Origin: Lachnospiraceae bacterium
Lineage (GTDB): Bacteria; Bacillota; Clostridia; Lachnospirales; Lachnospiraceae
Direction of reading: 5' to 3'
DNA length: 39,482 nucleotides
Assembly (NCBI GenBank): GCA_024692825.1
Contig: JAILMB010000129.1
Span: forward strand, 1 to 39,482
The first letter of the stretch is position 1. Each line of letters begins with the position of its first letter. A program made the translations under genes and the position numbers. Below are positions 2 through 36,190 of this stretch, one piece after another. The notes under the pieces are model-generated. The model was not told the origin of the DNA, did not search any database, and saw nothing but the letters and a program-made list of their open reading frames with translations.

Positions 2-328
2 GATGACTATGTTATTGCAACAGGAGATCAGCATACAGTACGTGAATTCGTAACTTTGGCTTTCTCTCATGTAGGAATTGAACTTGATTGGCAGGGAGAA
101 GGTATCAACGAAAAGGGTATTGATAAGGCAACAGGAAAGACTGTAGTTGCAGTATCAGAGGCCTTCTATCGTCCAACTGACGTAGTAGATTTATGGGGAG
201 ATCCAACAAAGGCAAAGACCGAACTTGGATGGGATCCACAGGAGACCACTTACGAAGAGCTTGTAAAGATTATGGCTGAGCATGACTGGAAACTTGCAAA
301 GCGTGAAAAGGCAATGAAGGAAGATTAA
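2..328 (+). CDS. gmd: GDP-mannose 4,6-dehydratase, C-terminal part (truncated by window start)
   Basis: Frame 2 is open from the window edge: DDYVIATGDQHTVREFV...FYRPTDVVDLWGDPTKAKTELGWDP, typical Gmd C-terminus. Confidence 0.93.
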   Translation, partial: DDYVIATGDQHTVREFVTLAFSHVGIELDWQGEGINEKGIDKATGKTVVAVSEAFYRPTDVVDLWGDPTKAKTELGWDPQETTYEELVKIMAEHDWKLAKREKAMKED

Positions 329-1056: not shown

Positions 1057-1518
1057 ATGGATCAGAGCGTAGAAACAAAAGAAAAAACAGGAAAGCAGAA
1101 ATTAATCGATCAGATTTTAAAATTTGGAGTCGTTGGAGTCATCAGCTTCCTTGTAGATTTTGGTGTATACACCTTTATCTGTAATATTCTGGGTATTAGC
1201 TACATTATTGCCGGAATTTTTGGATTTGTCATTTCTGTTATTGTAAATTACCTTCTCAGTATGAAGTTCGTATTTGAAGGTAGGGATGATATTTCAAAGA
1301 CGAGAGAGTTTGTCACCTTTGTAATTCTCAGTGCATTTGGCCTGCTGTTAAACGAAGTGATTCTATATATTTGTGTAGATGGTATTTATTGGCATTGGTC
1401 CTGGCTTCAAAGCTGGTTAAGTATTAAGCTTATGAATATGGGGGCAAAGATTGTAGCTACAGGGGTAGTTATGGTGTATAACTTTGTTACCAGAAAGATT
1501 TTTCTTGAAAAAAAATAA
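1057..1518 (+). CDS. GtrA family membrane protein (putative polyprenyl-P-sugar flippase)
   Basis: ~150 aa, four TM segments, FGVVGVISFLVDFGVYTFI and NFVTRKIFLE motifs. Confidence 0.9.
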   Translation: MDQSVETKEKTGKQKLIDQILKFGVVGVISFLVDFGVYTFICNILGISYIIAGIFGFVISVIVNYLLSMKFVFEGRDDISKTREFVTFVILSAFGLLLNEVILYICVDGIYWHWSWLQSWLSIKLMNMGAKIVATGVVMVYNFVTRKIFLEKK

Positions 1519-3348: not shown

Positions 3349-5274
3349 TTAATCGTAAATTCGTTGGTATTCAACGTAAGAATAATCATTTAAAAGCTCT
3401 TCTAAGTGCTCATTATTCATTGTATCTAAATTGTAAGTGGAAACAAAGCCAGTGTCTGTCGTATAGATACCGGTGGTATTTAAAATCGGCAATTCTTTTC
3501 GTAATAAAACCATGTATTTGTCAAAGTCACTTAGTGGTAATCCTGCATAGTAACGGGCCATAATACCTAAGTAAGTAGGCGTAATCACATTGTAACCTAA
3601 AGAAGGTAATGTGACTGGAGTATAGGAGTTTACGCCATGGTTTTGGTTTGTCCAGATAATATAAGGTGTGATATAGCGCAATTGTTCATATTCTGCAGTA
3701 TTTGAAACATTAGCCCCGGAAAAGACCTTATCTAGAAATTCTTCGTTTAAGGATGGCTGATGGTCACCGTAGAAACAAAGATACACCGGACGGGAAATTT
3801 TCCTTAACTCCTCTAACAGATAGGACAGGGCTTCGTCGGATTTTTTCATATCACCTGCAAAGATACAGGCATCCTGGTAAGCATTGTATTCTTCTCCAAT
3901 ATCTAGGGCGATGTCCCCAAGTTCATCTTCATTGTATCCACCGTGATTTTGAATGGTTACATTAAAAAGAAAAAGGGGATCTTTTGTGGTTTCTATTTCC
4001 TCCACCAACCGTTTGTAATCAGAGAGATCGTTTAGATATCCACGGGAATCAGAGTTTTTTTCTGAAGCGTGAAAATCATCAATATCAAGGAATTTTGAAA
4101 ATCCCATACCTTCATACACGGTTTGGCGTCGCCAGTTTGTGGGAAACATAGGATGGGATGCCACAGTGGAAAATCCCAGGTCATTATAATCACTAACCAG
4201 TGAATCCAAGTGGAAAAAGTCAAACATCATATAGGGAATGGTGCCGGGAATATTTGCCATGGAGTTTCCCGTTAGGCATTCAAATTCCGATTTATAGGTA
4301 CCACCGCCGAATGTAGAAGTGTAACATCCGCCATATTCTAAGGTTCCCGGGTCTGTTTCTAGCGAATGGAAAAATGATAAATATTTTTCATTAGCAGAAA
4401 AGTCGCCAACCATATCGTAGTCTGTAAAGGATTCATTCATTACGATAAGAATAACAGGACTTTCACTAGAATCAGCCTGGGTGTAATCTATGGTTTCATC
4501 AAAGGATGCTGCGCCTTTATTTACAATGTCGGTTGCTGTTGCACTTTTATATCCCTCTGGCTTATTTGGAATCATTTCATGGAGCTGAGCGGAAAAACTG
4601 GTGGAAAAACCGTATTCTTTGTAGGTTTGAATCGGATCCCATTGATAGTCTTCCATACTGTAGGTCTCATAAAAATCAGTCTTAACAATCCATTGAGACA
4701 GGAAAATACAAATCATGACACTGCAAAGAATGCGGGAACCATAGATTCTTTTTGTGAAGAGTTTTTTATGTAGTTGTTTAAGGGTATCCTTTTGGAGACC
4801 AACAAATATGATGAATAAAAACAAAAAAAACAGGGTGATTCCAATTTGTTTATTGAAAAAGATGTGATAGCCTTCCACAACGGCTGCAGCTGTTCGCAGG
4901 GATAAAATATCCACAGGAGCAATAGGATAAAAGCGGAAGGTTACGACTTCTAAATTTGCAATACCTACAAAGGCTGCAAAGACAAAGGTGAAATATATCC
5001 CAAACTCAAATCGAGGGGAAAGAAAAGAAAGTATTACCATAATACATAAAAGAATAAGATAGTTTAATAATAAGTATTCTGGTGAAATATGGAGTAAATG
5101 ATCATTCCATGGAAATTCTAATAAAAAGAAAGCAAATAATGGGTATAGAAGAAAGCACCCATAGGAGAGCATGGATAACAGCTTTGAATTTTTTGTAGGG
5201 ATAGATGGACAGAACTTAATTACGAAAACTGAAACAATGATTCCTGCGATAAATGTTAATATAATCCAACTCAT
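3349..5274 (-). CDS. LTA synthase-like membrane sulfatase / phosphoglycerol transferase (MdoB/LtaS superfamily)
   Basis: N-terminal TM segments then VILIVMNESFTDYD, GGTYKSEFECLTG, TIQNHGGY, CFYGDHQPSL. Confidence 0.85.
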   Translation of the reverse strand: MSWIILTFIAGIIVSVFVIKFCPSIPTKNSKLLSMLSYGCFLLYPLFAFFLLEFPWNDHLLHISPEYLLLNYLILLCIMVILSFLSPRFEFGIYFTFVFAAFVGIANLEVVTFRFYPIAPVDILSLRTAAAVVEGYHIFFNKQIGITLFFLFLFIIFVGLQKDTLKQLHKKLFTKRIYGSRILCSVMICIFLSQWIVKTDFYETYSMEDYQWDPIQTYKEYGFSTSFSAQLHEMIPNKPEGYKSATATDIVNKGAASFDETIDYTQADSSESPVILIVMNESFTDYDMVGDFSANEKYLSFFHSLETDPGTLEYGGCYTSTFGGGTYKSEFECLTGNSMANIPGTIPYMMFDFFHLDSLVSDYNDLGFSTVASHPMFPTNWRRQTVYEGMGFSKFLDIDDFHASEKNSDSRGYLNDLSDYKRLVEEIETTKDPLFLFNVTIQNHGGYNEDELGDIALDIGEEYNAYQDACIFAGDMKKSDEALSYLLEELRKISRPVYLCFYGDHQPSLNEEFLDKVFSGANVSNTAEYEQLRYITPYIIWTNQNHGVNSYTPVTLPSLGYNVITPTYLGIMARYYAGLPLSDFDKYMVLLRKELPILNTTGIYTTDTGFVSTYNLDTMNNEHLEELLNDYSYVEYQRIYD

Positions 5275-7019: not shown

Positions 7020-8105
7020 ATGCAAATTCAAAATAGCAATCGTCAATCAAATATTGAACTGTTAAGAATCCTTTTAATGATCGCAATTCTTAACTATCAT
7101 CTTATGCTATATAATGGTGTGTGGTTTCATGAATACAATACAAATACCCTTATAGGAATTATGATATCTGTTATTGGAGCAATACCGGCAGATTATTGTT
7201 TTATTGCTATGAGTAGTTATTTTTTGTTGAAGGAAAATGAGAAGCCCTGTGGACACTTATTTGGCAAACTCCCGGTTTATAAAAAAAGTATTCATCGGTT
7301 TTGGCGTTTTCTTACGCTGTGCCTTTCTATGTATGTAATTAAGGTTCTTGTTTTAAGAGGCTTATTTGGCTATAACAACAAAGAATACTTTGTAGATGTG
7401 TTTTTGATGAAGGGAGCCTGGTGGTACGTATATCCTTATCTTTGCTTATTACTGGCCTATCCTTATTTAAACAAACTTATGCAAAAAATTAATTCTATCA
7501 TCCATTTGATGCTTGTGGCATTTTTAGGCCTTGGGTTTATATGGATTAGTTATAGAAATGAAACAATCTTTGTTTACGATTTATGGGGCTTTCTATTTGA
7601 TTATGTTTTAGTGGCATATATTTTACGAAAGGATGGCGAATCCCTTTCCAGAAGATTTTATGGCGTTTGTAGCGGCATTTGTGCCGGATTTTTATTAGGT
7701 TGTTGTATTTTTGTTTGCGTGCCTTATCACAATGTGAGTCTGGAGCAGGGTCACTATGTAATTAGTCTTCTCGTGGGACGCTACAGTTTTCCCGCAGTTT
7801 TAATGGGAATCTTTACCTTTTTCTTTGTACTTAAGTCGAAGATTCCATATAAAAAATGGATTAATAAAATAGCTTCCATTACCATGTTTGTATTTTTGCT
7901 TCATGATACCTGGATGGGAGTATTTTGGTATTTGGGAAAATGTGATAATCAATATGTTTATTACTCAACGCCGACGTTTATTTTCTGGGGAGTAATGTTT
8001 GTAGCAACAGCATTTTTGGTATCAGGAATCATTGGCACTATATATAAGAGTAAAATTCAACCATTGTGGGAGAAAGCAATAAGAGATGAAAACGAAGTTG
8101 AATAA
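7020..8105 (+). CDS. Acyltransferase 3 family membrane protein
   Basis: RQSNIELLRILLMIAILNYHLML, SSYFLLKENEKP; ~10 TM segments. Confidence 0.85.
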   Translation: MQIQNSNRQSNIELLRILLMIAILNYHLMLYNGVWFHEYNTNTLIGIMISVIGAIPADYCFIAMSSYFLLKENEKPCGHLFGKLPVYKKSIHRFWRFLTLCLSMYVIKVLVLRGLFGYNNKEYFVDVFLMKGAWWYVYPYLCLLLAYPYLNKLMQKINSIIHLMLVAFLGLGFIWISYRNETIFVYDLWGFLFDYVLVAYILRKDGESLSRRFYGVCSGICAGFLLGCCIFVCVPYHNVSLEQGHYVISLLVGRYSFPAVLMGIFTFFFVLKSKIPYKKWINKIASITMFVFLLHDTWMGVFWYLGKCDNQYVYYSTPTFIFWGVMFVATAFLVSGIIGTIYKSKIQPLWEKAIRDENEVE

Positions 8106-9183
8106 GAATTATATGTTGTATTTTCTTCTGGCTTGTTTTGGTATGTTTCTATATACCTTTGATAATCATACGATTACATCCATACAAGACAGTTTGAGAA
8201 TCTCCTACGAAGATGGCCTTGTGTCAAGAGGTCTTATAGGAACAATTTATAATGGACTTGATGCACTTTTCCCATTTTCTTTATTCGAAGAAGGCGTGCA
8301 GGTGAGGACATTACTTATAGGGACTGTGGTTGTATATCTGCTTTTGGCCTTCATGGTGAAAAAATCCATGGCTGTTGTGGATGAGTCATTGAAGTCCTTT
8401 ATGGGATATTTTTTTATGGGATATGCCATGCTTTTTGTGGGGACCTTTTCAGCCAAGCGAAATTTTGGAGGCCTTCATCTTTTTATGATAGCAGTGACCA
8501 TACTTGGAATTATGGCCATTTTATTCTGGAATTGTAAGTGGCTATGTCTTCCCTTATCCATAGTAGGAGTGCTCATTGATGTTGACTATAGTCTGTTATA
8601 TTTTGGAATCCTTTTTTTCATTCTGTTGTATGAATACGAAGAAAGGAAAAGAAAGATGGATCTAGTACTCTTATGGATTACAACGGTCATTCAAGTGGGA
8701 GTATTTCTTTATTTTCAACTGGAGGAACATAGTGTTCTTGGAAAAGAAAATGAATATCGTATGCAAAACATTGTGGAGTTTCCCATATATCTTATGTTGA
8801 TTTCTCCATATTTATACATTGGAGGGAGATATTTAATAGAGGTATTTCGACAGATTCCAAAAGAGAAAAGGGGACGATATTTCGGTCTTGTCTTTGGAAG
8901 TATCCTTGTACTGCCATGTTTTTTATTTGAGAATCAATATGGCAGGTTTTTCTTTGCATTACTGACTTACTATGTATTGATATTTACGTACTTAGTTGTA
9001 AAAAAAGATGTGTATTTTGTTTCTGTGCTAAAGGCAGCAGTAGAAAAGAATAAAGGAAATCAGATTTATTTGATGGTATTTGCTGGAACGATATTGCTGG
9101 TTCCCTACTGGGATCGCCATATATCTTCAATCGTATATAGAATTTCAGATGTTTTAAATGGAGAGTGGCTACACTTATGGTAG
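8086..9183 (+). CDS. Multipass membrane protein, array member A (divergent)
   Basis: SYEDGLVSRGLIGTIYNGLDALFPFSLF aligns with the N-terminal motif of B-F; overlaps the preceding ORF by 20 bp. Confidence 0.8.
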   Translation: MKTKLNKNYMLYFLLACFGMFLYTFDNHTITSIQDSLRISYEDGLVSRGLIGTIYNGLDALFPFSLFEEGVQVRTLLIGTVVVYLLLAFMVKKSMAVVDESLKSFMGYFFMGYAMLFVGTFSAKRNFGGLHLFMIAVTILGIMAILFWNCKWLCLPLSIVGVLIDVDYSLLYFGILFFILLYEYEERKRKMDLVLLWITTVIQVGVFLYFQLEEHSVLGKENEYRMQNIVEFPIYLMLISPYLYIGGRYLIEVFRQIPKEKRGRYFGLVFGSILVLPCFLFENQYGRFFFALLTYYVLIFTYLVVKKDVYFVSVLKAAVEKNKGNQIYLMVFAGTILLVPYWDRHISSIVYRISDVLNGEWLHLW

Positions 9184-10397
9184 ATCGTATAGAAAAAAAG
9201 AAAAACCAAAGATTCTTAATCTGTATACTTCTATTTGCTTTGTTTTACTATTTGCGGTTTTTTGAGCATTGGATGTCACAGTACAATACCACCTTGTTTG
9301 CCCTTTCCTACAAATATGGATTTATTTCAAGGGGGTTGATTGGCACCCTGTGGTTGGGATTGGATAAACTATTGCCAGTATCCCTTATGACCTATAAGGC
9401 AGTGTATCTGTTTTCGGAACTTGCTACATGGATATTTGTGCTTTTGTTAGTAGCGGTATTTCGACAGGTCCTAGAACAAATTGATAAAAAACAACAACGA
9501 AATGCACGATACATTATTTTCTTCTTAAGCACCTTCGCTTTTCATGTGTTTTGGGGCGATGAGATGTTTGGTCGATTAGACGTGTATTTGTTTATACTGA
9601 CCTTACTATGTGTGCTTTTACTATTAAAGGGAAAATGGGAGTGGGCAATTGTTCCACTTTGTATTGTGGCAGTGTGCATTCATCAGGGATTTGTTTTTAC
9701 AAATTTTAATATTGTCCTGGTTTTGCTTTTTTATAAAATGATGAAAAAAAACGGAAGCAAGAAGAAATATGGACTGATTTTTCTTGTAACCTTTGTAAGC
9801 GTTTCTGTTTTGTTTTTGTATTTTGAATTATTTAGTCATAGCAATGGAACGGAAATCTATGGGGAAATCGTTAACGTTTCCAAAAGTCTTTCCTTTGATG
9901 GAGAAAGTTATAATGAATCCATTATTAATCATGAGATTTTAGGCAAAGACGTGTATGAAGATGAACTGATTTTTCATCAGGATAACTATAGGGAATTCCC
10001 GGCGGCATTAATTCTTTGGTCGCCTTATATTCTCATGGGATTGTGGTTTTTAAAGCAGTTATTGAAAAACGAGAAGAAGGAAGGACTCTTTGGTTATCTT
10101 GGAGTTGCCCTGGGCGGACTTACCATCGTACCGGAAATGATACTTAAGGTTGATTATGGAAGATACTTTCATTTAACTTTTTACTATTATATTTTAGTGG
10201 TACTGTGTTTAATGACTATGGGAGATACAAAGGTATGGGACACCTTAGATGAATTAAAGGAAAAGATTCGCGCAAGGTGTTTGGTACCATGGATTGTTTT
10301 AGTTTATCCCATGTTGTTAATGCCATTTTACGATATTTTGATTTCTCCAGCGGTAAAGAAACTATCCATATGGTTATTTGGAGAAGTATTACAGTAA
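9177..10397 (+). CDS. Multipass membrane protein, array member B (HQG subtype)
   Basis: YNTTLFALSYKYGFISRGLIGTL, FGRLDVYL, HQGFVFTN, LKVDYGRYF. Start taken as ATG 9177, 7-nt overlap with the stop of A. Confidence 0.85.
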   Translation: MVDRIEKKKNQRFLICILLFALFYYLRFFEHWMSQYNTTLFALSYKYGFISRGLIGTLWLGLDKLLPVSLMTYKAVYLFSELATWIFVLLLVAVFRQVLEQIDKKQQRNARYIIFFLSTFAFHVFWGDEMFGRLDVYLFILTLLCVLLLLKGKWEWAIVPLCIVAVCIHQGFVFTNFNIVLVLLFYKMMKKNGSKKKYGLIFLVTFVSVSVLFLYFELFSHSNGTEIYGEIVNVSKSLSFDGESYNESIINHEILGKDVYEDELIFHQDNYREFPAALILWSPYILMGLWFLKQLLKNEKKEGLFGYLGVALGGLTIVPEMILKVDYGRYFHLTFYYYILVVLCLMTMGDTKVWDTLDELKEKIRARCLVPWIVLVYPMLLMPFYDILISPAVKKLSIWLFGEVLQ

Positions 10398-10419
10398 TTT
10401 AAGACAGGTGAGGAAAAGA

Positions 10420-11340
10420 ATGAAAAAAATTGTAGCAGTAGCAATGACGGCAATTATGATTGTTGGTCTTTGTGGTTGTAGTAGCAAAGACTATTCTGAC
10501 ACAAAGCTATTAGATGGGGATGTGATTCGTGTTGGTGTGGATACGTCCTTAGAAGGAGAAGGTCTCTACAATGACTACTATGAAAATGTAGCAAAGACCT
10601 ATGACAATATAGAATTTGTAGAGCTTTCCAGGGAAGAGCAAATAGAGCAGTATTTACAGGGAGAAATAGATGTGGCATGGAATCTTCCGTTAAATGAAAA
10701 GAAGGAGATTCTTGAGGGAAATGAGGTAGAGCCGATAGATTTAGGCATGTATGTGGGAATCCGAATCAATCCACAGGCTGATTCTTTTTCTGATATAGAG
10801 TCTATGGAAAATCTATACAAAGGAATTTCTCTATGTCTGGATCGTGTCTATGGTCAGGAAAGAGTAGAAGGCATTGGAAATTCACCGGTGGCATCCACCT
10901 ATTTAGGAGAGAATGGCTACGATGCAAAGGAAAGCGGTGTTTTAAATATTGAGGATGGAATCGATTTATTGGAAACATGCGGATATGAATTTGAGATTGC
11001 CGGAGATGGTACCTACAATACAAATCCGGAAATAGAAATCCCATTTGAAGTTCTCCGTGGAGATGCAGAGGCCTATGCCTTAGCAGAAGTTGTACAATCT
11101 GATTTAGATGTGATTGGTATTACCATTGTTATCGAGGAATATGATTTAGAAGAATACAATAAGCTGTTAGAAAACAATGAGTATCACATAATTGCTAGTT
11201 GTGATGTGACAGAGGATGAAACCAGTGGATTTATTCCTCTTTGGGAAAAAACTTTTGTGACTCTTCAAAAGGAAAATGTGGAAATGGAATACAGTGTGTC
11301 AGATAAAACTTTGGTCTTAGAAAAGGGAACAAAGCAGTAA
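10420..11340 (+). CDS. Lipoprotein resembling the C-terminal part of SBP_bac_5 solute-binding proteins; no adjacent ABC transporter
   Basis: MKKIVAVAMTAIMIVGLCGCSSK lipobox-like signal; CLDRVYGQERVEGIG, LLETCGYEF, LAEVVQSDLDVIGITIVIEEYDLEEYNKLLENNEYHIIASC. Confidence 0.65.
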   Translation: MKKIVAVAMTAIMIVGLCGCSSKDYSDTKLLDGDVIRVGVDTSLEGEGLYNDYYENVAKTYDNIEFVELSREEQIEQYLQGEIDVAWNLPLNEKKEILEGNEVEPIDLGMYVGIRINPQADSFSDIESMENLYKGISLCLDRVYGQERVEGIGNSPVASTYLGENGYDAKESGVLNIEDGIDLLETCGYEFEIAGDGTYNTNPEIEIPFEVLRGDAEAYALAEVVQSDLDVIGITIVIEEYDLEEYNKLLENNEYHIIASCDVTEDETSGFIPLWEKTFVTLQKENVEMEYSVSDKTLVLEKGTKQ

Positions 11341-11362
11341 TTGATTAAAACGGAAGAGTATA

Positions 11363-12595
11363 GTGGAAGATATGGTACAAGGTACAGAGTATAAGAAAAA
11401 AGTTAATAAATTTATCGTAGGCCTAAGCTTTTTTTATCTAGCGGTGTTCTTTTTGACCTATGATGCAAAGCTAACGATTTACAATTCAACCCTTCTTTCC
11501 TTTTCTTATAAATACGGGTTTATTCCAAGAGCCTTTGTAGGAACAATATATGAAGGTCTGAATTGGATTTTGCCGGTGGATATGTATTCCTATGGAATGG
11601 CAATGCGATTTGTAGAGGTGTGTACAGCAATCTTTTTCCTTTTGATGATATGGATTGCCAGGAAAACATTGTTACTTGTCGGGGAAAAATACTTCAAAAC
11701 CATAGGTGTTGTGTGGATAATCTATGGGATTATGTTTGTTAGTATGTTCTCTTCGAAGTATAACTTCGGCAGAGTGGATTTATTTATGCTACTCATAGAT
11801 GCCATAGGCATTTGTCTTCTTATGAAAAGAAAAGGGGAGTGGCTATTAATTCCCCTATCGGTAATCGGAGTAATGGTACATGAAGGGTTTGTTTTTATGT
11901 ACTTTAGTACCATTCTTGTGATTTTAATTTATCGCTTTTTTATGACAGAGGAAAAAAAGAAGTATGGATGGATCTTTGCTTTATCACTTGTGGGAGCATC
12001 GGTGACGTTTTTGTACTTTATGTTTTTTAGGACCCCTGTGGATCGTGAGACCTATTTAAGTATTTATCGAATGGCCAGGGATTTGTCCTATGAAGGAAGA
12101 CCGCATATTTCGCTTCTTTCTGCGGAGCTGCTCTGCGTTAATTTGGGCGATATAGAAAAAGCCTTTCACAAGGAAAACTTTCTGCAGCTTCCATTTTTCG
12201 TATTGATGGTATCACCATTTTTGGTATTTTTATGCCGCCTGGGACGATCTCTTTATCTAAAGGCAAAGGGCATGAAAGAAAAGCTTGCCTATTTGGCCGT
12301 TATGATCGGGTGGATGACATTGATTCCAAATTTTGCCTTAAAGGTGGATTATGGTCGCTGGATTTTTGCAGCCTTTAGCTTCTTCTTTATTGTATTTATT
12401 ATGATGTATGTGGAGCAGGATAAGTATTTTATTCAAAGTTTTGAAATAGAGTGTAACCGGTACAGAAAGCATCCCGGAGTAGAAGAACTTATGATAATCT
12501 ATCTGATTGCTCTAGTGCCTTTACAGGATGTTTACATAAATGCAATGTTAAAGAAATTAAGCGACTTTATAAACGTATATTTGCAGTGGTATTAA
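11363..12595 (+). CDS. Multipass membrane protein, array member C (HEG subtype)
   Basis: YNSTLLSFSYKYGFIPRAFVGTIY, KYNFGRVDLFM, HEGFVFMYF, LKVDYGRW; start may be GTG 11363 or ATG 11372. Confidence 0.82.
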   Translation: MEDMVQGTEYKKKVNKFIVGLSFFYLAVFFLTYDAKLTIYNSTLLSFSYKYGFIPRAFVGTIYEGLNWILPVDMYSYGMAMRFVEVCTAIFFLLMIWIARKTLLLVGEKYFKTIGVVWIIYGIMFVSMFSSKYNFGRVDLFMLLIDAIGICLLMKRKGEWLLIPLSVIGVMVHEGFVFMYFSTILVILIYRFFMTEEKKKYGWIFALSLVGASVTFLYFMFFRTPVDRETYLSIYRMARDLSYEGRPHISLLSAELLCVNLGDIEKAFHKENFLQLPFFVLMVSPFLVFLCRLGRSLYLKAKGMKEKLAYLAVMIGWMTLIPNFALKVDYGRWIFAAFSFFFIVFIMMYVEQDKYFIQSFEIECNRYRKHPGVEELMIIYLIALVPLQDVYINAMLKKLSDFINVYLQWY

Positions 12596-12598
12596 TAG

Positions 12599-13798
12599 AT
12601 GAATATGAAAAAAGAAAAAACAAATTTATATTTTATGATGTTTTTGATCCTCTTTGGGGCAGTTTTGTCTTACAGGTATTTTGATCAGGGAGTATCACGA
12701 TACAATACAACCTTGTTCGCCTTGTCCTATAAATACGGCCCTATTTCAAGAGGACTTTTAGGAACCCTATATGCAGGATTAAATCATATCCTACCAATGA
12801 ATCTTATGAGTTATTCCTGGGTGTATTTCTTTTGCTTACTTTCAACGGCCTTTTTTGATTTTTTACTTCTTATATTTTTTACAAGAGTATTACAAAAATC
12901 GGTAGAAAATCAAAAGAATCAAATCTATCTCATCCTTTTAGTGGCAATCTTTACCTTTCCAATGTTTGTTACAAAGGAGATGTTGGGACGATTAGATATT
13001 TATTTGATGATACTAGTCATGCTTTGTTTGTTTTGTCTGATAGAGGACCGATGCCTATGGCTCATCCCTGTCTTTTGTGTCGTGGCTATGTTATTCCATC
13101 AGGGATTTGTTTTTACAAATATTAATCTGATTCTGGTACTTTTATTCTATAAGGGATTAAAAGAAGATGGAAACAGGAAGTATTTTGTTGTATTTGGTAT
13201 TACCTTACTTTTGTGTTCTGTGCTGTTTTTATACTTTGAATTTTTCAGTCATTCCAATGGTAGTGAGATTTTAGATGAGGTAGTTACTAATGCAAAGGCT
13301 CTTTCTGCCAGTGGAAGGGGATACAATCCATCCATTATAGATCATGAAATTCTCGGAAAAGATGTCTATGAGGCGGAGACGGAATATCGTGTGTTAGCTC
13401 ATCAGGAAACAGGAGTCTTTTTAGTGTTCTTCTGGCCATTTTTGATTTTGGGATTTGGTTTTATGAAGCATTTGCTCCAGGGCCAGAAAGGAAAAAATTT
13501 CCTGGCCTATCTTGGCATTTGTTTAGGTGGATTTACCATGATACCGGAAATCTTATTAAAAGTAGACTTCGGTAGATATGCTTATTATACATTTTGGTAC
13601 TATTTAGTAGCGGCCATGGTTTTAATTCTATGGAAAGACGAGGTTTGTATACAAGCCTTAGAATGGGTGAAATCCCTGATTAAAAAATGGCTTCCCATTC
13701 CACAGCTGGTATTTGCCTATCTACTGTTATTTGTTCCCTTCCACGACATTATCTATGGGGAACTGGTGGACAATATTAAAATCTTTATTTTTGGTTAA
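12599..13798 (+). CDS. Multipass membrane protein, array member D (HQG subtype)
   Basis: YNTTLFALSYKYGPISRGLLGTLY, LGRLDIYL, HQGFVFTN, FEFFSHSNGSEI, HEILGKDVYEAE, LKVDFGRY. Confidence 0.85.
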   Translation: MNMKKEKTNLYFMMFLILFGAVLSYRYFDQGVSRYNTTLFALSYKYGPISRGLLGTLYAGLNHILPMNLMSYSWVYFFCLLSTAFFDFLLLIFFTRVLQKSVENQKNQIYLILLVAIFTFPMFVTKEMLGRLDIYLMILVMLCLFCLIEDRCLWLIPVFCVVAMLFHQGFVFTNINLILVLLFYKGLKEDGNRKYFVVFGITLLLCSVLFLYFEFFSHSNGSEILDEVVTNAKALSASGRGYNPSIIDHEILGKDVYEAETEYRVLAHQETGVFLVFFWPFLILGFGFMKHLLQGQKGKNFLAYLGICLGGFTMIPEILLKVDFGRYAYYTFWYYLVAAMVLILWKDEVCIQALEWVKSLIKKWLPIPQLVFAYLLLFVPFHDIIYGELVDNIKIFIFG

Positions 13799-13801
13799 GA
13801 C

Positions 13802-15592
13802 TTAAGGTGTATAAACTTCACAGTTTTGAAGGGTGAGCTCCGTTCCCACAATATAGCCATCTATTAGGTAATAATTTAAATGAGACTGAGCGGAATCCGG
13901 AATATCAGAAAAATCAAAGAATATGTATATGATTTCCGGGTAGGATGCACCTTCTTTTCGGGTTTTGAAATGAGAAAGGGTTTTCCTGTCAGCGACGCTA
14001 CTCATATCACGGCTTAGATAAGAAATATTTAAGCTAAGGTCATAGTCAAGAGCATAGGTTTCGAAGACACAAGAAGTGTGAGGGTCGCACTCAATGCCAA
14101 ATTCCGTTGGAGGATAAAACATAATTTGTGTCGCATTTTCCCCTAGGATTTTCCAGGCGCTATCCTTAAGTTCCAAAGAGTATTCCGTTAACTCTTTATG
14201 ATAGGCTTCGTACTTATAGGTAAAGCTAGGCCATAAATCAACCATCTGCAACAAGGTGCAAAACAGAAGCACTACTAATATTTTTTTGGATTTAAATTTG
14301 TTGTAAAGATGGGCGCAACTGATTAATAAAAGTGAGAGAAGCCCATAATAAACCGGCCAGATAAAACGTCCGCAGGAACGGAAAATACTAAGCATGTAAT
14401 AGATATATTTTGGATATGAAATCTGACATAGCGTTTTACTTCCAAAGGTAATGGTGGGAGATAGAGCCAAAAAGGTAAATACAACGCCACATACCCAAAT
14501 TGCAATCTTTTGTGACAGATTAAAAATACCAGGGGTGTTAGAAGTCAATTTTCTATAAATACAATTAATAAGACATAGAACAAGCAGTAGAATGACACCC
14601 AGTCCCAGATAGGAAAAGCCCTCTTCCTGCCAACCGGACGCTAAGGGCAGGTTTGGTAAGAAAGTGGAATAGGACTGGGGAGTAAAGGTGTATTGATAGT
14701 CTGTGACATCACATAGGTAATTCATAGGGTTGAATAACTGTGTAAGGTTGAAGGAGAGGCGTTCTAATCCTCCTGTTGAAGCAGAAATATGACCATAAAA
14801 GAACCCAACAAAGTAGCTTACTAAATTCATAACAGCACAGATGATAAAAGTAAATCCTGCTATATAGAATAGAACCTTTTTTTTCTTTTTTGCTTCAAGA
14901 AGTTTTTGCAGACAAAAACACAAATAAATCCCTAGCACCATAGGGGCATAATAGGGATTGATAAGAGTAGAGCCGCTTAATAATAAGCACCAGAAAAAAC
15001 AGCACTTTTTGATAGAAAAAGTGTCGTGATACAACCAAAGACAAAAGGCCATAAGAATCAAAAAATGAGCTGAAAGAGCGGTATGATAAAACATGCGCTT
15101 TGTAAGCACAGGAGAGATACAAAAAAGGATGGCGGCAATGGCGGAAATAAAACAGGAAGATGAAAATTTTCGCACAATAAGGGCACCAAAACCACCCATG
15201 AACATATAGCAGATGAGACCAAACAATCCAAAATATTGAAAGGTTTCCGGAAGAATGGGAGAAAGGGCCTTAAAAATAATTGCAAATAATGGAATGGAAT
15301 CCGTATATACAATGGAAATAGGCGATGAGTATAAATGATCTAATAATCCAAAGGGAAAATGCCAGGGACTGTTGCGAAAATAAACCCATCCAAGGTAGTG
15401 TTGTGTCAAGTCCCATAGGCCTTCATTGTCAACGGAGTGAGTAAGCCAGTTTACATTTGTAACATCTAAGGGTGCAAACCCATAGAGTAAGAAAAAAATA
15501 ACTCCACCTAAAAGACATCCCAGGGCAAAGTGGGATGCGGGAGTAGAAGACATGTGAAGTTTTATCTTTTTATTTATGCTAAAATCGTTCAT
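13802..15592 (-). CDS. Large multipass membrane protein, DUF6311-like
   Basis: LTQHYLGWVYFRNSPWHFPFGLLDHLYSSPISIVYTDSIPLFAIIFKALSPILPETFQYFGLFG matches my recollection of DUF6311; not searched. Confidence 0.7.
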   Translation of the reverse strand: MNDFSINKKIKLHMSSTPASHFALGCLLGGVIFFLLYGFAPLDVTNVNWLTHSVDNEGLWDLTQHYLGWVYFRNSPWHFPFGLLDHLYSSPISIVYTDSIPLFAIIFKALSPILPETFQYFGLFGLICYMFMGGFGALIVRKFSSSCFISAIAAILFCISPVLTKRMFYHTALSAHFLILMAFCLWLYHDTFSIKKCCFFWCLLLSGSTLINPYYAPMVLGIYLCFCLQKLLEAKKKKKVLFYIAGFTFIICAVMNLVSYFVGFFYGHISASTGGLERLSFNLTQLFNPMNYLCDVTDYQYTFTPQSYSTFLPNLPLASGWQEEGFSYLGLGVILLLVLCLINCIYRKLTSNTPGIFNLSQKIAIWVCGVVFTFLALSPTITFGSKTLCQISYPKYIYYMLSIFRSCGRFIWPVYYGLLSLLLISCAHLYNKFKSKKILVVLLFCTLLQMVDLWPSFTYKYEAYHKELTEYSLELKDSAWKILGENATQIMFYPPTEFGIECDPHTSCVFETYALDYDLSLNISYLSRDMSSVADRKTLSHFKTRKEGASYPEIIYIFFDFSDIPDSAQSHLNYYLIDGYIVGTELTLQNCEVYTP

Positions 15593-15598
15593 GTGTAC

Positions 15599-15627
15599 AG
15601 TATATGAAATTTTAATCTTGGGGTAAA
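15599..15627 (-). promoter_or_regulatory. Putative sigma-A promoter placing +1 at or near the annotated ATG of the DUF6311-like gene
   Basis: Minus strand TTTACC-N17-TATACT-GTACAC-ATG. Confidence 0.4.
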
Positions 15628-15656
15628 TAGGATTTTATCCATAGGAAGTGTTTGAA

Positions 15657-16412
15657 ATGGAAATGAATCGTTTGGAAAAAGCAAAGTATTTTATATGGAT
15701 TTTGGTGGTAAGCTTTGGCGCCTTTTTATACGGAGTAGATGAAGAAATATCTCTAAAAGCACTGATGGGGACACTTCTATTTTTCCTTTATTATGTAGTA
15801 ACAATCCGAAATGGAATGGAGCTAGAAGTAAAAAGCTATGTCTTTTTATTTTTGACTGCTGTTTTTACGAGTACAATTTGGAATAGTGAATATGTAGCTT
15901 CTAAGGAGTTACACTATATTGGCGGCTTACTGGTTATTTTGTGTGGGGCAGAACTCATTACAAAAGAATCGATACGATTTTTGGTGATTTCCATTGGGAC
16001 AACCGTATTATTGATTATTCATTTTGGCCTGGAGGAACTGCCGGTTATTGGCCTAGAAGGATTTGGACCAAAGTTAATCGCTCTTTTCTTTTTCGCACCA
16101 CTGGTTTATCTCTCAAGAAAGGGATTACAAAGTGAGTGGGAGAGATGGATACACTTAGCTGTAGTTATGATTCACGGAGCATACGTGGTTTTGGTGACAA
16201 CTCACACCTATTGGATTCTTTCAGAAGTATTCTATTTGGCCGGTTGCTTTATGCTCTATGGAAAAAAAGAAGAGTTAAAAAAAGAGCCTCCTATGTTATG
16301 GATTTTAATTGGAGTCTGTGGCCTTGGACTTACCATGCTTCGAGGAGATAATGTGAATTACTACTGTGGAGGAATATGGAATATGATGCAAAGGATAGTA
16401 GGAGTATTATGA
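15657..16412 (+). CDS. Membrane protein of unknown function
   Basis: About 250 aa, several TM segments, AGGAA upstream, coupled by ATGA to the next gene; start may be GTG 15648. Confidence 0.65.
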   Translation: MEMNRLEKAKYFIWILVVSFGAFLYGVDEEISLKALMGTLLFFLYYVVTIRNGMELEVKSYVFLFLTAVFTSTIWNSEYVASKELHYIGGLLVILCGAELITKESIRFLVISIGTTVLLIIHFGLEELPVIGLEGFGPKLIALFFFAPLVYLSRKGLQSEWERWIHLAVVMIHGAYVVLVTTHTYWILSEVFYLAGCFMLYGKKEELKKEPPMLWILIGVCGLGLTMLRGDNVNYYCGGIWNMMQRIVGVL

Positions 16413-17617
16413 TGATAGAGACAAAAAAACAAAAACAGTACTTCATCCTTGGGTATCTGATTGTTGCAGGCATCTATTTTGGCCGATATTTTGAATACTA
16501 TATGACAGGGTATAATACCACATTGTTTGCCATGTCCTATAAGTATGGATTTATTTCCAGAGGGCTTTTGGGTAGTTTCTGGCTGGCACTAGATGGGATT
16601 ACGCCTTTTTCACTTATGAATTATCAGGCAGTGTATGTGTTTACTTTGATTATGACCATATTTTATCTATGGTTACAGTTGTATTTTTGCCTGCGATGTC
16701 TGGATAAAGTGGCAAATGATCATAGAAGAACCATGGTGCAATGCGTGCTGTTTTTACTGGCCGTAGTGCTGCCTATGTATATAGGAAGTCAGATGTTAGG
16801 AAGATTGGATTTGTACCTTTATATTCTAACATTGTTGGCATTGTTGCTATTACTAGAGGAAAAGTGGGAGTGGCTGATTATACCAATTGGTATTGTGGCC
16901 ATGTTGATTCATCAAGGGTTTGTTTTTACCAATGCAAATTTGATTTTGGTACCAATGTTTTTTGTGATTCTTACCACTAAAAGTGCGAAGAAGAGAAAAA
17001 AATATCTTTGGATTGGAATCCTATTTTTTGTATCCATTTCAGTATTGTTTTTGTATTTTGAATTCTTTAGCCATTCTGCTGGCATGGAAAACTATGAAGA
17101 GATATTAATGAATGCCAAGGCATTGTCTTATGATGGAGAAAGTTATAATGTATCTTTGATTCATCATGAGATTTTAGGAGAGGACGTCTATGAGGCTGAG
17201 GCAGTTTACAGAGCCTATAACAGGATTGAATTTCCGGCAGCCGTAGCGTTGTTTTCACCATATATATTTATTTGCATTCACTATTTTTCGCTTTTATTAA
17301 AAGGGAAAAAGAAATGGGAGTTACTTGCTTATGGAGCAATTCCACTTGGAATGATTACCATTCTACCGGAAATGATTTTAAAGGTAGACTATGGAAGATA
17401 TGCTTTTGGAACTATCTTTTATATTTTTACCATGTTAATCTTTTTTTTGGCAAAAAAGGATAAGGACATAGAGGAAACAATGGAGGCGGAAAAGAGGTTT
17501 ATTAAAAAGTGGAATCCAATTCCATATTCCTTACTTGTATATGTTTTATTTTTAATCCCTTTTTGGGATAATCTAATTTCCATCGAAGTACATAAATTGG
17601 CTACATGGATATTCTAG
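16409..17617 (+). CDS. Multipass membrane protein, array member E (HQG subtype)
   Basis: YNTTLFAMSYKYGFISRGLLGSFW, LGRLDLYL, HQGFVFTN, HEILGEDVYEAE, LKVDYGRY. ATG 16409 overlaps the upstream TGA; AGGAG upstream. Confidence 0.85.
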   Translation: MMIETKKQKQYFILGYLIVAGIYFGRYFEYYMTGYNTTLFAMSYKYGFISRGLLGSFWLALDGITPFSLMNYQAVYVFTLIMTIFYLWLQLYFCLRCLDKVANDHRRTMVQCVLFLLAVVLPMYIGSQMLGRLDLYLYILTLLALLLLLEEKWEWLIIPIGIVAMLIHQGFVFTNANLILVPMFFVILTTKSAKKRKKYLWIGILFFVSISVLFLYFEFFSHSAGMENYEEILMNAKALSYDGESYNVSLIHHEILGEDVYEAEAVYRAYNRIEFPAAVALFSPYIFICIHYFSLLLKGKKKWELLAYGAIPLGMITILPEMILKVDYGRYAFGTIFYIFTMLIFFLAKKDKDIEETMEAEKRFIKKWNPIPYSLLVYVLFLIPFWDNLISIEVHKLATWIF

Positions 17618-17625
17618 GAGTAATT

Positions 17626-18843
17626 ATGAATCAGGAAAAGAAGAGACAACAACAGTTTATATTTGCTACCCTTTTGCTAACTGGGATACTCTTTGTGGCA
17701 AATTATGCCGGGGTGGTGAATAAGTATAATGCAACGATTTTGTCTTTAAATTATAATTATGGGTTTATTTGCAGAGGACTGATTGGAACGTTATATCACG
17801 GACTGGATGTAATACTACCTATGGATTTGTTGAATTATAATATGGTGATCCGTTTCTACTTTGTAACTACCTTATTGTTTTTTGCATTAATGCTTTATTT
17901 TGGAGTGAGTTGCTATAAAGATTCTACTGCAGAAAGCAGAAATCGAGTGGTCTTTTTGGTATTGCTTTTATTTTGCGTGATTGCCCCAAGTTTTAGTGCA
18001 GAATATAACTTTGGGCGAATCGACATGTTTATGATTATCTGCAGTATTTTAGGTGTATTATGTATTTTAAAAAGAAAACTGGAGTTTTTGGTTGTTCCAC
18101 TTGGAATGGCGGGAGTGATGTTCCACGAAGGATATGTGCTTATGTATTTAAACATTATCCTAGTGCTTTTGTTCTATCGCTGGATGAGTGGAGAAAAGAA
18201 ATACGCTTTTCTTTTTGGAGCAACTTTACTAGGAGCTTCGGTTTTGTTTTTGTACTTCCACTTTTTTAGTTTTTCCGAAGGAGAGGATATCCTTAGAGAA
18301 GTAACCTTAAATGCAAGACGACTGTGTGATAAAGGCACCTATCATATCTCTTTGGTTCAGGCGGAAATTTTAGGAGTGGATCTAGGAGAAACAGAGGTGA
18401 TTTATCATCTTAGAAACTTAATTGAGTTTCCGTGTTTTGTCATTTTTACCATTCCTCTATGGTTTCCCTTGGTAAGATTTTTTATAAAGCTTTTAAAGCG
18501 GGGAAGAACCATACAGGATAAACTAAAATATCTGGCCTTGGCAGTGGGTTCTTTCACCCTGTTGCCGGATTTCTTATTCAAAGTGGATTATGGTCGATGG
18601 ATCTTGGCAATGATTGTTTATTACATTGTTGTGCTGTTATTTATACATGGACAAAAAGATGAATTGGCCCTTAAGTGTTTAAATGAAGTAGAACCAAAAG
18701 GCAGTTATCGTTATCTGTACTGGATATTTGCCATGGGCTATATGCTTTGTCTGACTCCCTTTGCGGATGTTAGTATTGATATTCTCATGGGAAGAACCAG
18801 TGGCATTTTAAACAAATACATCTTCCATTTTTGGATAGAATAA
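17626..18843 (+). CDS. Multipass membrane protein, array member F (HEG subtype)
   Basis: YNATILSLNYNYGFICRGLIGTLY, EYNFGRIDMFM, HEGYVLMYLN, FKVDYGRW. The stop TAG of E lies inside the SD TAGGAG of F. Confidence 0.84.
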   Translation: MNQEKKRQQQFIFATLLLTGILFVANYAGVVNKYNATILSLNYNYGFICRGLIGTLYHGLDVILPMDLLNYNMVIRFYFVTTLLFFALMLYFGVSCYKDSTAESRNRVVFLVLLLFCVIAPSFSAEYNFGRIDMFMIICSILGVLCILKRKLEFLVVPLGMAGVMFHEGYVLMYLNIILVLLFYRWMSGEKKYAFLFGATLLGASVLFLYFHFFSFSEGEDILREVTLNARRLCDKGTYHISLVQAEILGVDLGETEVIYHLRNLIEFPCFVIFTIPLWFPLVRFFIKLLKRGRTIQDKLKYLALAVGSFTLLPDFLFKVDYGRWILAMIVYYIVVLLFIHGQKDELALKCLNEVEPKGSYRYLYWIFAMGYMLCLTPFADVSIDILMGRTSGILNKYIFHFWIE

Positions 18844-18855
18844 TAGGAGAAAAAC

Positions 18856-19953
18856 GTGGACATTAAAGAGAGTAAAAAGAAGGAACTACTGTTTTTTTTA
18901 TGTATAATCGCCTTTGGGTTTCTATATGATTGGAAATGGTTCGGAAGCAGAATCTCAGAGGAAAATCTAGCCTACTATACCATTAATTACAAAGCAGGAT
19001 TTTGCCCCGGTGGCTTTATGGGAACATTCATTGGGGCACTTCATCGTATCCATCCTTTAGGGGATTATATGATGAGCGTTTATTTTTGGGCAAAGGTAGG
19101 ATTATTCTTATATCTTTTTCTCGGAATCCTTTTTCTTTGGATGGTGTATCAAAAGGGAAAAGAAAAGGGGTATAAGGATGTGCCGGCAGCAATCTTAGGC
19201 ATGTGCGTGGTGTTAATCCCCATGTTTCAATTGGAGTCTAACTTTGGATCTATGGATATGTATCTGATGATTGTGACACTACTATCCTTTATTCTTTTAC
19301 TTTGGGAAAGATTTGAATGGTTAGTACCTCTATTAGCAGTGATAGGAGTGTGTATTCATCCAGCCTTTATCTATCGATTACTGCCTCTTTTGTGTTACTT
19401 TATTTTGCAAAAAAAGGACCGTTTCAAAATCGGTGTTGCTACTGTAGTTGGATCTGTGGCAGTATTTATTGTTTCCCAGATAAAGGCAAGTGTCCTTATG
19501 GAGCATAGAGATTATTTTTATCTTTTTTGCCTAGATGGGAATGACCAAAAACTACGAATTATAAATATGGTGCTATTCGTATTCTTCATGCTTCCTCTAA
19601 TTTCCATGGGATGCTCCATATTGAAAAGAAAAAATGAGAAGGTTTTTCGATTCCTGATCTGTGCCAGTGTGGTGTTAGTATTTTTTGATGTTGGATTAAA
19701 GAATAATCCCGGCTTGGCAGCTTATTACCTTTTGGTGCAAGGATCATTTTTGGTACTTATGGAGGTGATTTTAACAGAGGAAGGTGCTTTTTCCTTCCGG
19801 AAATCCATGAAGCTTCATGCATGGGCGTTGGAGGGAAAACAGAATTACTTTTGGCTGATTTATCCCCTTTTATTTATGCCGTTTAAAACCCATAGCATTT
19901 GTATTTTCCTGGATAAATTAATTAGATTATTTACAGGGGCATTAGGAGTATAA
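18856..19953 (+). CDS. Multipass membrane protein, array member G (divergent)
   Basis: YYTINYKAGFCPGGFMGTFIGAL, SNFGSMDMYLMI, CIHPAFIY align with the family motifs; GTG start with AGGAG. Confidence 0.75.
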   Translation: MDIKESKKKELLFFLCIIAFGFLYDWKWFGSRISEENLAYYTINYKAGFCPGGFMGTFIGALHRIHPLGDYMMSVYFWAKVGLFLYLFLGILFLWMVYQKGKEKGYKDVPAAILGMCVVLIPMFQLESNFGSMDMYLMIVTLLSFILLLWERFEWLVPLLAVIGVCIHPAFIYRLLPLLCYFILQKKDRFKIGVATVVGSVAVFIVSQIKASVLMEHRDYFYLFCLDGNDQKLRIINMVLFVFFMLPLISMGCSILKRKNEKVFRFLICASVVLVFFDVGLKNNPGLAAYYLLVQGSFLVLMEVILTEEGAFSFRKSMKLHAWALEGKQNYFWLIYPLLFMPFKTHSICIFLDKLIRLFTGALGV

Positions 19954-19954
19954 A

Positions 19955-21547
19955 ATGGAAAAATTGACAGGGATTTTTTCAAAAATAATAGCATGTTTGG
20001 TTTTCTTTTCATTTGCTGTAATTCTTGGAATCATAATAATTTTAGATCGAAGTCATTTGGATTGGTTTAATTATCGAATTGCAATCCGAAATGTTTTTTT
20101 ACTGGTAGGATGGGCAGTTGTATTTGGTTTTATCTTTGCATTTCGAGGAAAACTAAAGCCATGGGCGAAAAAAAGCGGAAGTCTTTTGCAATGGAAAAAG
20201 ACTCTGCTTTTTTGCAGTGTTATCTTATTTATCGTTGAAATAATCATTGTAAAGGCAATCCATTTTCAGGTAGGTTGGGATGTTTATTATATGAAGGATA
20301 TGGCACAGCAGTTTTTGCAGGGCGGGTTATCCTCTTTTTATAAAGATTATATGGTAACAAATCCCAATAATATTTTTATTTTTGGACTGAATGTTTTCTT
20401 TTTGTGGTTGGGAAATTTAATTCATGTGGATGGCTATATACTCTTCATTATTTTCGGAGTCTTATGTACGAATATCAGCTGTTATCTTGTGGGAGTTGTA
20501 ACCTATCGCATGACGAAAAAGATGCTTCCAGCATGGATTGCATATGGAATCGCAGTAGTGCTTTTAGGCTTGTCTCCATGGATGTCCGTTCCTTATACAG
20601 ATACCATATCCTTGTGGATTTCCGTATTAAGCATCGACATTTATTTCATACTAAAAGAGAGAATGGCACACCCAGCATGGATGGCACTTTTGATTTTTGC
20701 CTTAGGAGGTATTACCTACTATTTAAAGCCGATTAATATTTTTGTGGGATTGTCTATTCTTATTGTTGAAATAATTCATTTTACAAAAGAGAAGTTTCAG
20801 TTGAAAAAAATTTTGGTATGCATTTTGGTGGCAGTGGTATCTCTGTTTTGTGTCAAAGGTTTTCAACAGCTGGTGTGGACGGGGTTAGATTATACGCCGG
20901 ATAGCCGCTATGAAAAGCCAATGGTCTATTATTTAATGTTAGGAAATGACCCCTTACTGGGAGGTGTTTATAACACGGTAGACGACGACTATATTAGTGG
21001 CTTTTACAGTCTGGAAGAAAAAAAGGAAGCATCTCTTTCCCTGTTGAAAACAAGGATGTCCCAAATGGGAGTGTCGGGTTATCTTTCTCTTTTGGTACGA
21101 AAAATGGATGTGGATTTTAATTCCGGATTATTTGGCTGGGGAAAAGAAGCAGACTTCGTATATGAATTGTACGATACAGATAGTGGCTTTGATCATAGCA
21201 TAAGAAATTTTTATTACGTAGGACAGGGGTCTGGTGTTTATTCCTGGCTGGATCAAAAGGAGTTGTGTTTTCTGGAGGACGGAAAAAATTTCCAGTTTCT
21301 GGCTGTAGTGACTCAAGGAGTTTGGCTCTTTGTTCTAATGATGTGTCTTGTTTTTGGAATCCATGGTTGGAAGAAAACCAGGAAGAACCCTGTGGAGGAT
21401 GTGATTTCTGTTGCAGTGCTAGGGATGATTCTTTACTTAGTATTGTTTGAAACAAATGCGAGATATTTGATTAGTATGTTACCGGTATTTTTTGTAATGG
21501 CTGGTGTGGGCTGTTCAAAAATGATAGAAAAGATTGTGGGAGAATAG
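19955..21547 (+). CDS. GT-C-like membrane glycosyltransferase
   Basis: VGWDVYYMKDMAQQFLQG...NPNNIFIFGLNVFFLWLG...VPYTDTISLWISVL...YYLKPINIFV; many TMs; paralogue at 24027-25670. Confidence 0.75.
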   Translation: MEKLTGIFSKIIACLVFFSFAVILGIIIILDRSHLDWFNYRIAIRNVFLLVGWAVVFGFIFAFRGKLKPWAKKSGSLLQWKKTLLFCSVILFIVEIIIVKAIHFQVGWDVYYMKDMAQQFLQGGLSSFYKDYMVTNPNNIFIFGLNVFFLWLGNLIHVDGYILFIIFGVLCTNISCYLVGVVTYRMTKKMLPAWIAYGIAVVLLGLSPWMSVPYTDTISLWISVLSIDIYFILKERMAHPAWMALLIFALGGITYYLKPINIFVGLSILIVEIIHFTKEKFQLKKILVCILVAVVSLFCVKGFQQLVWTGLDYTPDSRYEKPMVYYLMLGNDPLLGGVYNTVDDDYISGFYSLEEKKEASLSLLKTRMSQMGVSGYLSLLVRKMDVDFNSGLFGWGKEADFVYELYDTDSGFDHSIRNFYYVGQGSGVYSWLDQKELCFLEDGKNFQFLAVVTQGVWLFVLMMCLVFGIHGWKKTRKNPVEDVISVAVLGMILYLVLFETNARYLISMLPVFFVMAGVGCSKMIEKIVGE

Positions 21548-21548
21548 G

Positions 21549-22553
21549 TTGAGTATAACAAAGGATCAAGGAGAAAAAATACAAATCATGAGAGGTCTGT
21601 GCATCGTGGCTGTTGTATTCATTCACGTATGCTTTGGAAGTGCATATGACCTGTATATTAGTGCCTTGGGAAATTATTGCGTAGGAAGTTTTTTGTTTTT
21701 AAGTGGTTTTTTTACGTATGAAAAGAGAGTATTTCCTGTAGGAAAGTTTTATAAAAAAAGAGGACTAAGAATTCTTGTACCCTACCTTCTATGGTCTCTT
21801 ATTTACACGGCTTACAGTGGAGATTTTTCCGGATTCTTTTATAAATTGTTAACAGGCCAATGTTGCAGTATTTATTACTACATCATTGTGTATCTACAGC
21901 TTATTTTGCTTACTCCTCTATTGGTAAAAATCATGAAAACAAAGCTTTGGTGGATAATACTTTGCATTTCGCCTTTTGGAATATTAGGGGAATATATGAT
22001 TGCTTTAAAGACAGACTATTTGTTGATTTATCCATGGAATATTAATAACTTTGTAGTCTGGATCAGTTACTACTATATTGGAGTGTTAATAGTTAACAAA
22101 AGCCTAGAAAAAAAGGTGACATCCATTTCGTGGATGGGTGTGATTGGAATGATTGTTGTGGCAGGAGGACTTTCTGTTTTTGAGGCAAGATGGTGGCTTG
22201 ATTTTGGACGAGAGGATTTTGCTACCACTCCGGCAAAATTATCGGTATTCTTATGGACCCTTAGTGTGCTTTTGGTACTTTTAAAGTGGATGAGTACAAA
22301 GAATCCTAAAGAGATAAACTTTGGCTGGAAAGTGTTGAAATATATTGGAGATGCATCCTTTGGCATTTATCTCGTTCATCAGCTTATCATTCAAGTATTA
22401 GGACAATGGGGAGTTTTAAGATTCCATCGGATGATAAATTATCTTTTGGTAATGGGGGTTTCTTTTTGTATTGTGTGGGGACTAAAAAGCTTTCTGGTTG
22501 GAATTTGGAAAGATAAGGGAAAACAATGGGCACAGTGGATTGGTTGTATGTAA
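21549..22553 (+). CDS. Acyltransferase family membrane protein
   Basis: IQIMRGLCIVAVVFIHVCFG, FLFLSGFFTYEKR, DASFGIYLVHQLII; proposed TTG start (ORF track gives 21534), ATG 21588 also possible. Confidence 0.78.
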   Translation: MSITKDQGEKIQIMRGLCIVAVVFIHVCFGSAYDLYISALGNYCVGSFLFLSGFFTYEKRVFPVGKFYKKRGLRILVPYLLWSLIYTAYSGDFSGFFYKLLTGQCCSIYYYIIVYLQLILLTPLLVKIMKTKLWWIILCISPFGILGEYMIALKTDYLLIYPWNINNFVVWISYYYIGVLIVNKSLEKKVTSISWMGVIGMIVVAGGLSVFEARWWLDFGREDFATTPAKLSVFLWTLSVLLVLLKWMSTKNPKEINFGWKVLKYIGDASFGIYLVHQLIIQVLGQWGVLRFHRMINYLLVMGVSFCIVWGLKSFLVGIWKDKGKQWAQWIGCM

Positions 22554-36084: not shown

Positions 36085-36132
36085 ATATTACAGAAATGGT
36101 GAGTTTGACTTGCCTACAGAGAGTAATTGGCG

Positions 36133-36168
36133 GAAACGGATTTCAAAAGAGCCAAGGCATGGATGCTT
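36133..36168 (+). promoter_or_regulatory. Leader with two GGA-loop hairpins (candidate CsrA sites)
   Basis: GAAA-CGGA-TTTC (36133-36144) and AGGCA-TGGA-TGCTT (36155-36168, contains CATGGATG); SD GCGGAGG also carries GGA. Confidence 0.5.
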
Positions 36169-36190
36169 CCATTTGCGGAGGTTCTTTTTT

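Follow-up and report, generated by a model that had tools for sequence, protein, structure and literature searches.

Why would a bacterium keep seven versions of one membrane protein almost side by side, and what might they do? The question is raised by contig JAILMB010000129.1 of a gut- or rumen-type Lachnospiraceae bacterium (assembly GCA_024692825.1), whose full 39,482 nucleotides are called the window here. Within positions 8086 to 19953 lie seven homologous multipass membrane open reading frames (ORFs), all on the plus strand and referred to as A to G (Table 1). They are true paralogs of a single family: with B as the query, the other six were recovered at 6e-112 to 5e-18, with no further match in the 2.38-Mb draft genome, and MAFFT aligned all seven from end to end, at identities of 19 to 48%. 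A sequence-only reading had described a tandem array with an ordered motif set common to all members. The paralogy stands, but three genes break the array (encoding a lipoprotein resembling a substrate-binding protein [SBP], a DUF6311 protein on the minus strand, and a 254-amino-acid membrane protein), and it is held in two plus-strand runs, 7020-13798 and 15648-25670. Similarly, the full motif set is found in B, C, D, E, and F, while A and G lack most of it. The family is real and recurrent, and its members are most likely GT-C-like surface glycosyltransferases. More specifically, it is probable that B to F are extracytoplasmic glycosyltransferases of a new GT-C_A-like family, working in an expanded three-component system in which A and G are noncatalytic partners or have changed function.

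Predicted fold and conserved residues

Do the proteins belong to a known family? No window member exceeded a Pfam or NCBIfam cut-off, the four members scanned against PHROGs gave zero matches, and more divergent homologs likewise reached no family cut-off in these three collections. A search of PDB sequences with a profile of 89 aligned members found no credible match. At the family level, then, the earlier statement that the proteins have no recognized family holds, and the Pfam check it proposed gave no strong match of all seven to one characterized family. Paper searches, which covered open-access text, found no description of the family, which is apparently undescribed. Below the cut-offs, the best match to Pfam GT87 (PF09594) was F (21.0 bits versus a cut-off of 25; E, 3.2e-4), and 4 of the 89 members matched at an E of ≤0.01. 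Glucos_trans_II (GtrII, PF14264) matched no window member and weakly matched 2 of the 89 (best E, 4.3e-5; hhalign probability, 11%). These weak similarities suggest GT-C glycosyltransferases, though TgpA_N and the transmembrane (TM) regions of histidine kinases matched equally weakly among the 89, so such scores mean little for membrane proteins. Several array-bearing clusters encode a second, GT87-like membrane family (L040:8019-9389 and relatives, 11 sequences) that matches Pfam GT87 at 2.6e-5 and has a conserved D30, GQxD motif, and K188; the hhalign P value between the two families is 2.8e-4.

The predicted structures point the same way. AlphaFold models of E (from 89 sequences) and A (from 71 sequences) have predicted local distance difference test (pLDDT) scores of 95.1 and 93.3, respectively, and their helices follow one another identically, with TM1 leading into a pair of juxtamembrane helices before TM2 and the rest. 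Both thus show the GT-C_A trait of a TM1 followed by an outer loop with juxtamembrane helices and a multi-TM core. When the models were compared by Foldseek to 350,542 PDB chains, only GT-C enzymes exceeded a probability of 0.4 among the matches listed. For E these were PglB (0.92), EmbA-EmbB (0.66), and the STT3 subunit of oligosaccharyltransferase (OST; 0.60), the only listed matches above 0.5; for A, the top three were ALG6 (0.94), PglB (0.91), and OST (0.47), with ALG3 in fifth place. A viral structure library yielded no match. Much the same alignment underlies both models, which are therefore not fully independent; a divergent GT-C_A fold can be called twice supported by prediction but not proven. 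In the structural comparison that the sequence-only reading had proposed, E and A share one predicted fold, and the listed matches include GT-C enzymes and no polymerase, but the E-values are nonsignificant.

Where would the active site lie? Lysine plus arginine density is 0.14 to 0.31 in the predicted inner loops versus 0.00 to 0.13 in the outer loops, and this positive-inside counting places all nine conserved charged residues on the extracytoplasmic side. These are R50, R131, D133, H167, E253, E263, K324, D326, and R329. The signature is kept in 78 of the 89 aligned members, while 11 depart from it. Charge class is retained at each of the nine positions in at least 97% of the 78 canonical members, a figure that is partly so by construction, since "canonical" was defined by eight of the nine residues; over all 89 rows, R131, D133, H167, D326, and R329 are conserved at 89 to 93%. 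Within the GRxD motif, the Asp (D133) is followed 34 residues later by a His (H167). This resembles the GT87-like neighbors, in which GQxD is followed by a Lys 33 residues after the Asp, and the active-site layout of PimE, D160/Q163...K195 (PMC12041525).

Several observations weigh against a GT-C assignment. GT-C families are matched only weakly at the profile level, with no hhalign probability above 41%, and the hhalign comparison to GT87, built from three sequences only, is uninformative (P, 0.13). The Foldseek E-values of the GT-C matches run from 0.05 to 0.9, with none below 0.05, and their TM-scores are just 0.34 to 0.43. The association with a nearby glycosyltransferase family 2 (GT2) gene, described below, rests on four related genomes and on a post hoc threshold. 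Finally, in characterized GT-C_A enzymes the catalytic Asp lies after TM1, at the start of the first outer loop (EL1; D58 in PimE). The array family has no conserved Asp there: no EL1 column is more than 59% acidic, and position 28 is acidic in 50%. Among the GT87-like neighbors, D30 is present in at least 85% of the aligned sequences. Because the EL1 Asp is without a conserved counterpart, D133 and D326 become the candidates for the catalytic base.

Recurrence, ancestry, and competing explanations

How widespread is the family? In a sample of 299 genomes from the same bacterial family, 10 matched at 1e-8. Four of them (the window's genome, G139, G252, and G275) hold 5 to 7 copies, and the other six have one more distant copy each. 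All of the 7 matches among 392 genomes of an order-level sample were again from the same bacterial family, and when a species-level genome collection was scanned, the titles of all 22 loci recovered were those of Lachnospiraceae; the related named records are all labeled Lachnospiraceae, Pseudobutyrivibrio, Roseburia, or Faecalicatena. The fetched loci contain 100 family ORFs, with 3 to 6 copies per stretch in many. The genome survey proposed earlier does find other multicopy clusters: arrays of 3 to 7 copies recur in several other Lachnospiraceae genera, these numbers being lower bounds where few candidates were scored. A phylum-level sample searched with the 89-row profile produced one distant singleton outside the bacterial family (L125:1264-2844), a 526-amino-acid protein with an extra N-terminal region that keeps GFVKRGIVG and DVGRY.

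Are all of the copies functional? Perhaps just one or two are active, and the array is a store of tandem duplicates in decay that do not divide any labor. The losses in A and G would fit. In A, FGGLH replaces GRLD, IDVDYS replaces HQGFVF, and ENQYGR replaces KVDYGR; G has YKAGFCPGGFMG, FGSMD, HPAF, and KNNPGL; and both have a truncated outer loop. Judged by their residues, A and G appear to be without an active site, and other loci contain further degenerate or short copies, including short ones in addition to the 11 departing members. Even so, this explanation is quite unlikely, as the signature is kept by 78 of the 89 and the copies are old. A quick maximum-likelihood tree of the 89 members puts B, D, and E in clade I (30 rows; support, 94) and A, C, and F in clade II (43 rows; support, 99), although the program warns that it is unsure where long branches (A, G, and others) belong. 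Most clusters with several canonical members contain both clades; the array is therefore made up mostly of old paralogs rather than recent duplicates, and the 19 to 48% identity within it likewise implies old copies. Adjacent pairs often mix the two clades, yet clusters share ancestry, and this alternation was not counted as evidence. Degenerate copies can also be retained. Four short "GT/CP" proteins form one subfamily (27 to 35% identity), each adjoining a canonical member of the same well-supported subclade, and such persistence across four genomes speaks against simple decay.

The sequence-only reading had left open a choice between GT-C enzymes and EpsG/Wzy-type proteins, which would be polymerases or ligases for lipid-diphosphate-linked repeat units. 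The latter are also multipass proteins with several conserved outer Arg and His residues, and G has a subthreshold match to Pfam EpsG (PF14897; 12.9 bits versus a cut-off of 30.1; E, 0.059), the only window member to do so. However, an EpsG profile built here aligned to the family at an hhalign P value of 0.017 (probability, 2.7%), weaker than the 2.8e-4 with the GT87-like neighbors, and no polymerase structure was among the matches listed for either model. A polymerase is normally present once per pathway, so that 3 to 7 copies per cluster are a poor fit, and the two juxtamembrane helices after TM1 are as in GT-C_A. GT-C is favored by both models and by topology and operon context, leaving a polymerase very unlikely. 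Least likely of all are multipass transporters, flippases, or sensors: G-protein-coupled receptors and transporters do occur at similar E-values in the Foldseek lists, but among the matches listed their TM-scores (≤0.24) and probabilities (≤0.30) leave the GT-C enzymes standing apart, and the outer-face charged residues and predicted juxtamembrane helices also speak against them.

The gene neighborhood

The genes around the array are listed in Table 1. To the left are a partial GDP-mannose 4,6-dehydratase gene (gmd, C-terminal part), a GT2 gene, gtrA, and acyltransferase-like genes; to the right are two further large membrane proteins, a second GT2, and a phosphohexomutase-like gene. An intact gmd occurs in a related cluster (L043:7925-8995; TIGR01472, 518 bits), homologs of the acyltransferase-3-like gene also lie upstream of arrays in other genera, and DUF6311 homologs are present in related clusters. 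The DUF6311 protein is likely another GT-C-type enzyme. In a congener (G034), the contig with the PGM-like gene begins just 79 bases upstream of it.

Table 1. Features of the array, its surroundings, and a short degenerate subfamily from other loci
Feature	Position	Strand	Remarks
GDP-mannose 4,6-dehydratase, C-terminal part	2-328	+	named from sequence
GT2, probable polyprenyl-P-sugar synthase	330-1046	+	
GtrA, probable lipid-P-sugar flippase	1057-1518	+	PF04138, 2.9e-25
Acyltransferase-3-like gene	7020-8105	+	just upstream of A; named from sequence
Paralog A	8086-9183	+	signature residues largely lost, same predicted fold; probable pseudoenzyme; clade II
Paralog B	9165-10397	+	canonical, clade I; likely start ATG 9177
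SBP_bac_5-like lipoprotein	10423-11340	+	directly upstream of C; Pfam PF00496, 2.1e-11
Paralog C	11363-12595	+	canonical, clade II
Paralog D	12599-13798	+	canonical, clade I
DUF6311 membrane protein	13802-15592	-	PF19830, 5.1e-26
254-aa membrane protein	15648-16412	+	overlaps start of E; no Pfam/NCBIfam family
Paralog E	16412-17617	+	canonical, clade I; start 16409 or 16412; AlphaFold pLDDT 95.1
Paralog F	17626-18843	+	canonical, clade II; subthreshold GT87 match, 3.2e-4
Paralog G	18856-19953	+	degenerate ("GS" type): R131S; outer loop truncated; D326 and R329 lost
TIGR03766-like (XrtG-associated glycosyltransferase) membrane protein	19955-21547	+	E 1.2e-41, 143 bits versus cut-off 500
Second TIGR03766-like membrane protein	24027-25670	+	E 8e-20, below cut-off
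Second GT2, GtrB/PgfS-like, polyprenyl-P-sugar synthase type	28487-29443	+	NF047588, 4.4e-97, below cut-off
Short degenerate paralogs, 294-332 aa	L038:15017-15901, L045:4411-5376, L069:9765-10748, L070:11276-12274		one subfamily ("GT/CP")

The first GT2 is 70 to 77% identical in G139, G252, and G275, where the array proteins are far more divergent. An ortholog at 1e-80 was found in 10 of the 299 genomes, comprising all four with at least 5 copies versus 6 of the 295 others (hypergeometric probability, about 6e-7, calculated by hand and uncorrected for relatedness or the post hoc threshold). In the array-free genomes examined, the ortholog lies near putative genes for sugar-nucleotide (GDP-mannose/6-deoxyhexose) enzymes and membrane proteins, named from sequence. 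The lipoprotein gene has a counterpart as well: L058:18838-19482 encodes a homolog (46% over 169 amino acids) that is missing part of the N-terminal region, and the next gene downstream is C's closest relative (60%). No ATP-binding cassette (ABC) transporter genes were seen near this SBP and C pair.

Other genes of the window include an LTA-synthase-like (lipoteichoic acid) membrane protein with a Pfam sulfatase domain near the array (3349-5274, minus strand), an ORF with a Pfam tocopherol-cyclase match (29456-30799; 8.5e-8) in a presumably anaerobic bacterium, and a large DUF6240 protein whose C-terminal domain is FliK-like (36110-39154).

A possible pathway and its known counterparts

How might these parts work together? 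In the GT-C reading, the cytoplasmic GT2 to the left of the array, possibly along with the second GT2, would load a sugar onto polyprenyl phosphate, the sugar probably being mannose or a GDP-mannose-derived 6-deoxyhexose. GtrA would flip the lipid-linked sugar. The GT-C component of the three-component system would be the one that has multiplied, with each canonical paralog moving the sugar onto its own position in an envelope glycan, and acyltransferases could finish the product. A and G would probably be noncatalytic partners or have altered functions. The envelope-glycan machine suggested earlier, "combinatorial or multi-subunit," fares differently in its two halves: "combinatorial" is reasonable though unproven, and "multi-subunit" gains just indirect support, from degenerate paralogs standing beside canonical ones, for which a partner role is hypothesized.

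Several known systems bear comparison. One is GT87, to which PimE, a polyprenyl-phosphate-mannose-dependent GT-C_A mannosyltransferase, belongs. The two are alike in predicted fold type, in an outer-face layout with an acid/Gln after TM3 and a basic residue about 32 to 35 residues later, and in the subthreshold Pfam matches of four members. The array family differs in falling below the Pfam cut-off, in lacking a conserved counterpart of D58, in having His for Lys, and in its multicopy arrays. Three-component systems for O-antigen and teichoic acid glycosylation (GtrA-GtrB-Gtr; the GT136 system, PMC11127046) similarly place a GT2 synthase-like protein and GtrA beside GT-C-like proteins, but with one or few transferases rather than many paralogs. 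LpqZ and FecB, SBP-like lipoproteins of mycobacteria that have no transporters, are binding partners of the GT-C enzymes AftA and AftB (PMC12802301). The coupling of the lipoprotein gene with C is a suggestive parallel only, as the SBP family is a different one and the glycosyltransferases have no sequence relationship. EpsG/Wzy polymerases (PF14897) share a multipass, envelope-glycan character but have no supported sequence or fold match and differ in copy number. Lastly, the TIGR03766-like, DUF6311, and GT87-like proteins of the clusters are large, multipass, found in the same loci, and probably also GT-C, but they are separate families whose alignments show conserved N-terminal Asp residues that the array family lacks. 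A bolder version of the scheme combines a new GT-C family with relocated acids (D133/D326), dead paralogs (A, G, and "GT/CP") joined with active ones in obligate heteromers, and acceptor-binding SBP-like lipoproteins; as a whole, it is a speculative and rather unlikely proposal.

Overall, the array would extend what gut and rumen bacteria have as a surface-glycan repertoire by an undescribed family of glycosyltransferases, and it would offer a natural series of 3 to 7 related enzymes per genome in which to study how acceptor specificity diversifies. The absent outer-loop Asp raises the question of where the catalytic base of such GT-C-like enzymes is located, and the retained degenerate paralogs raise that of whether pseudo-glycosyltransferases may serve as partners.

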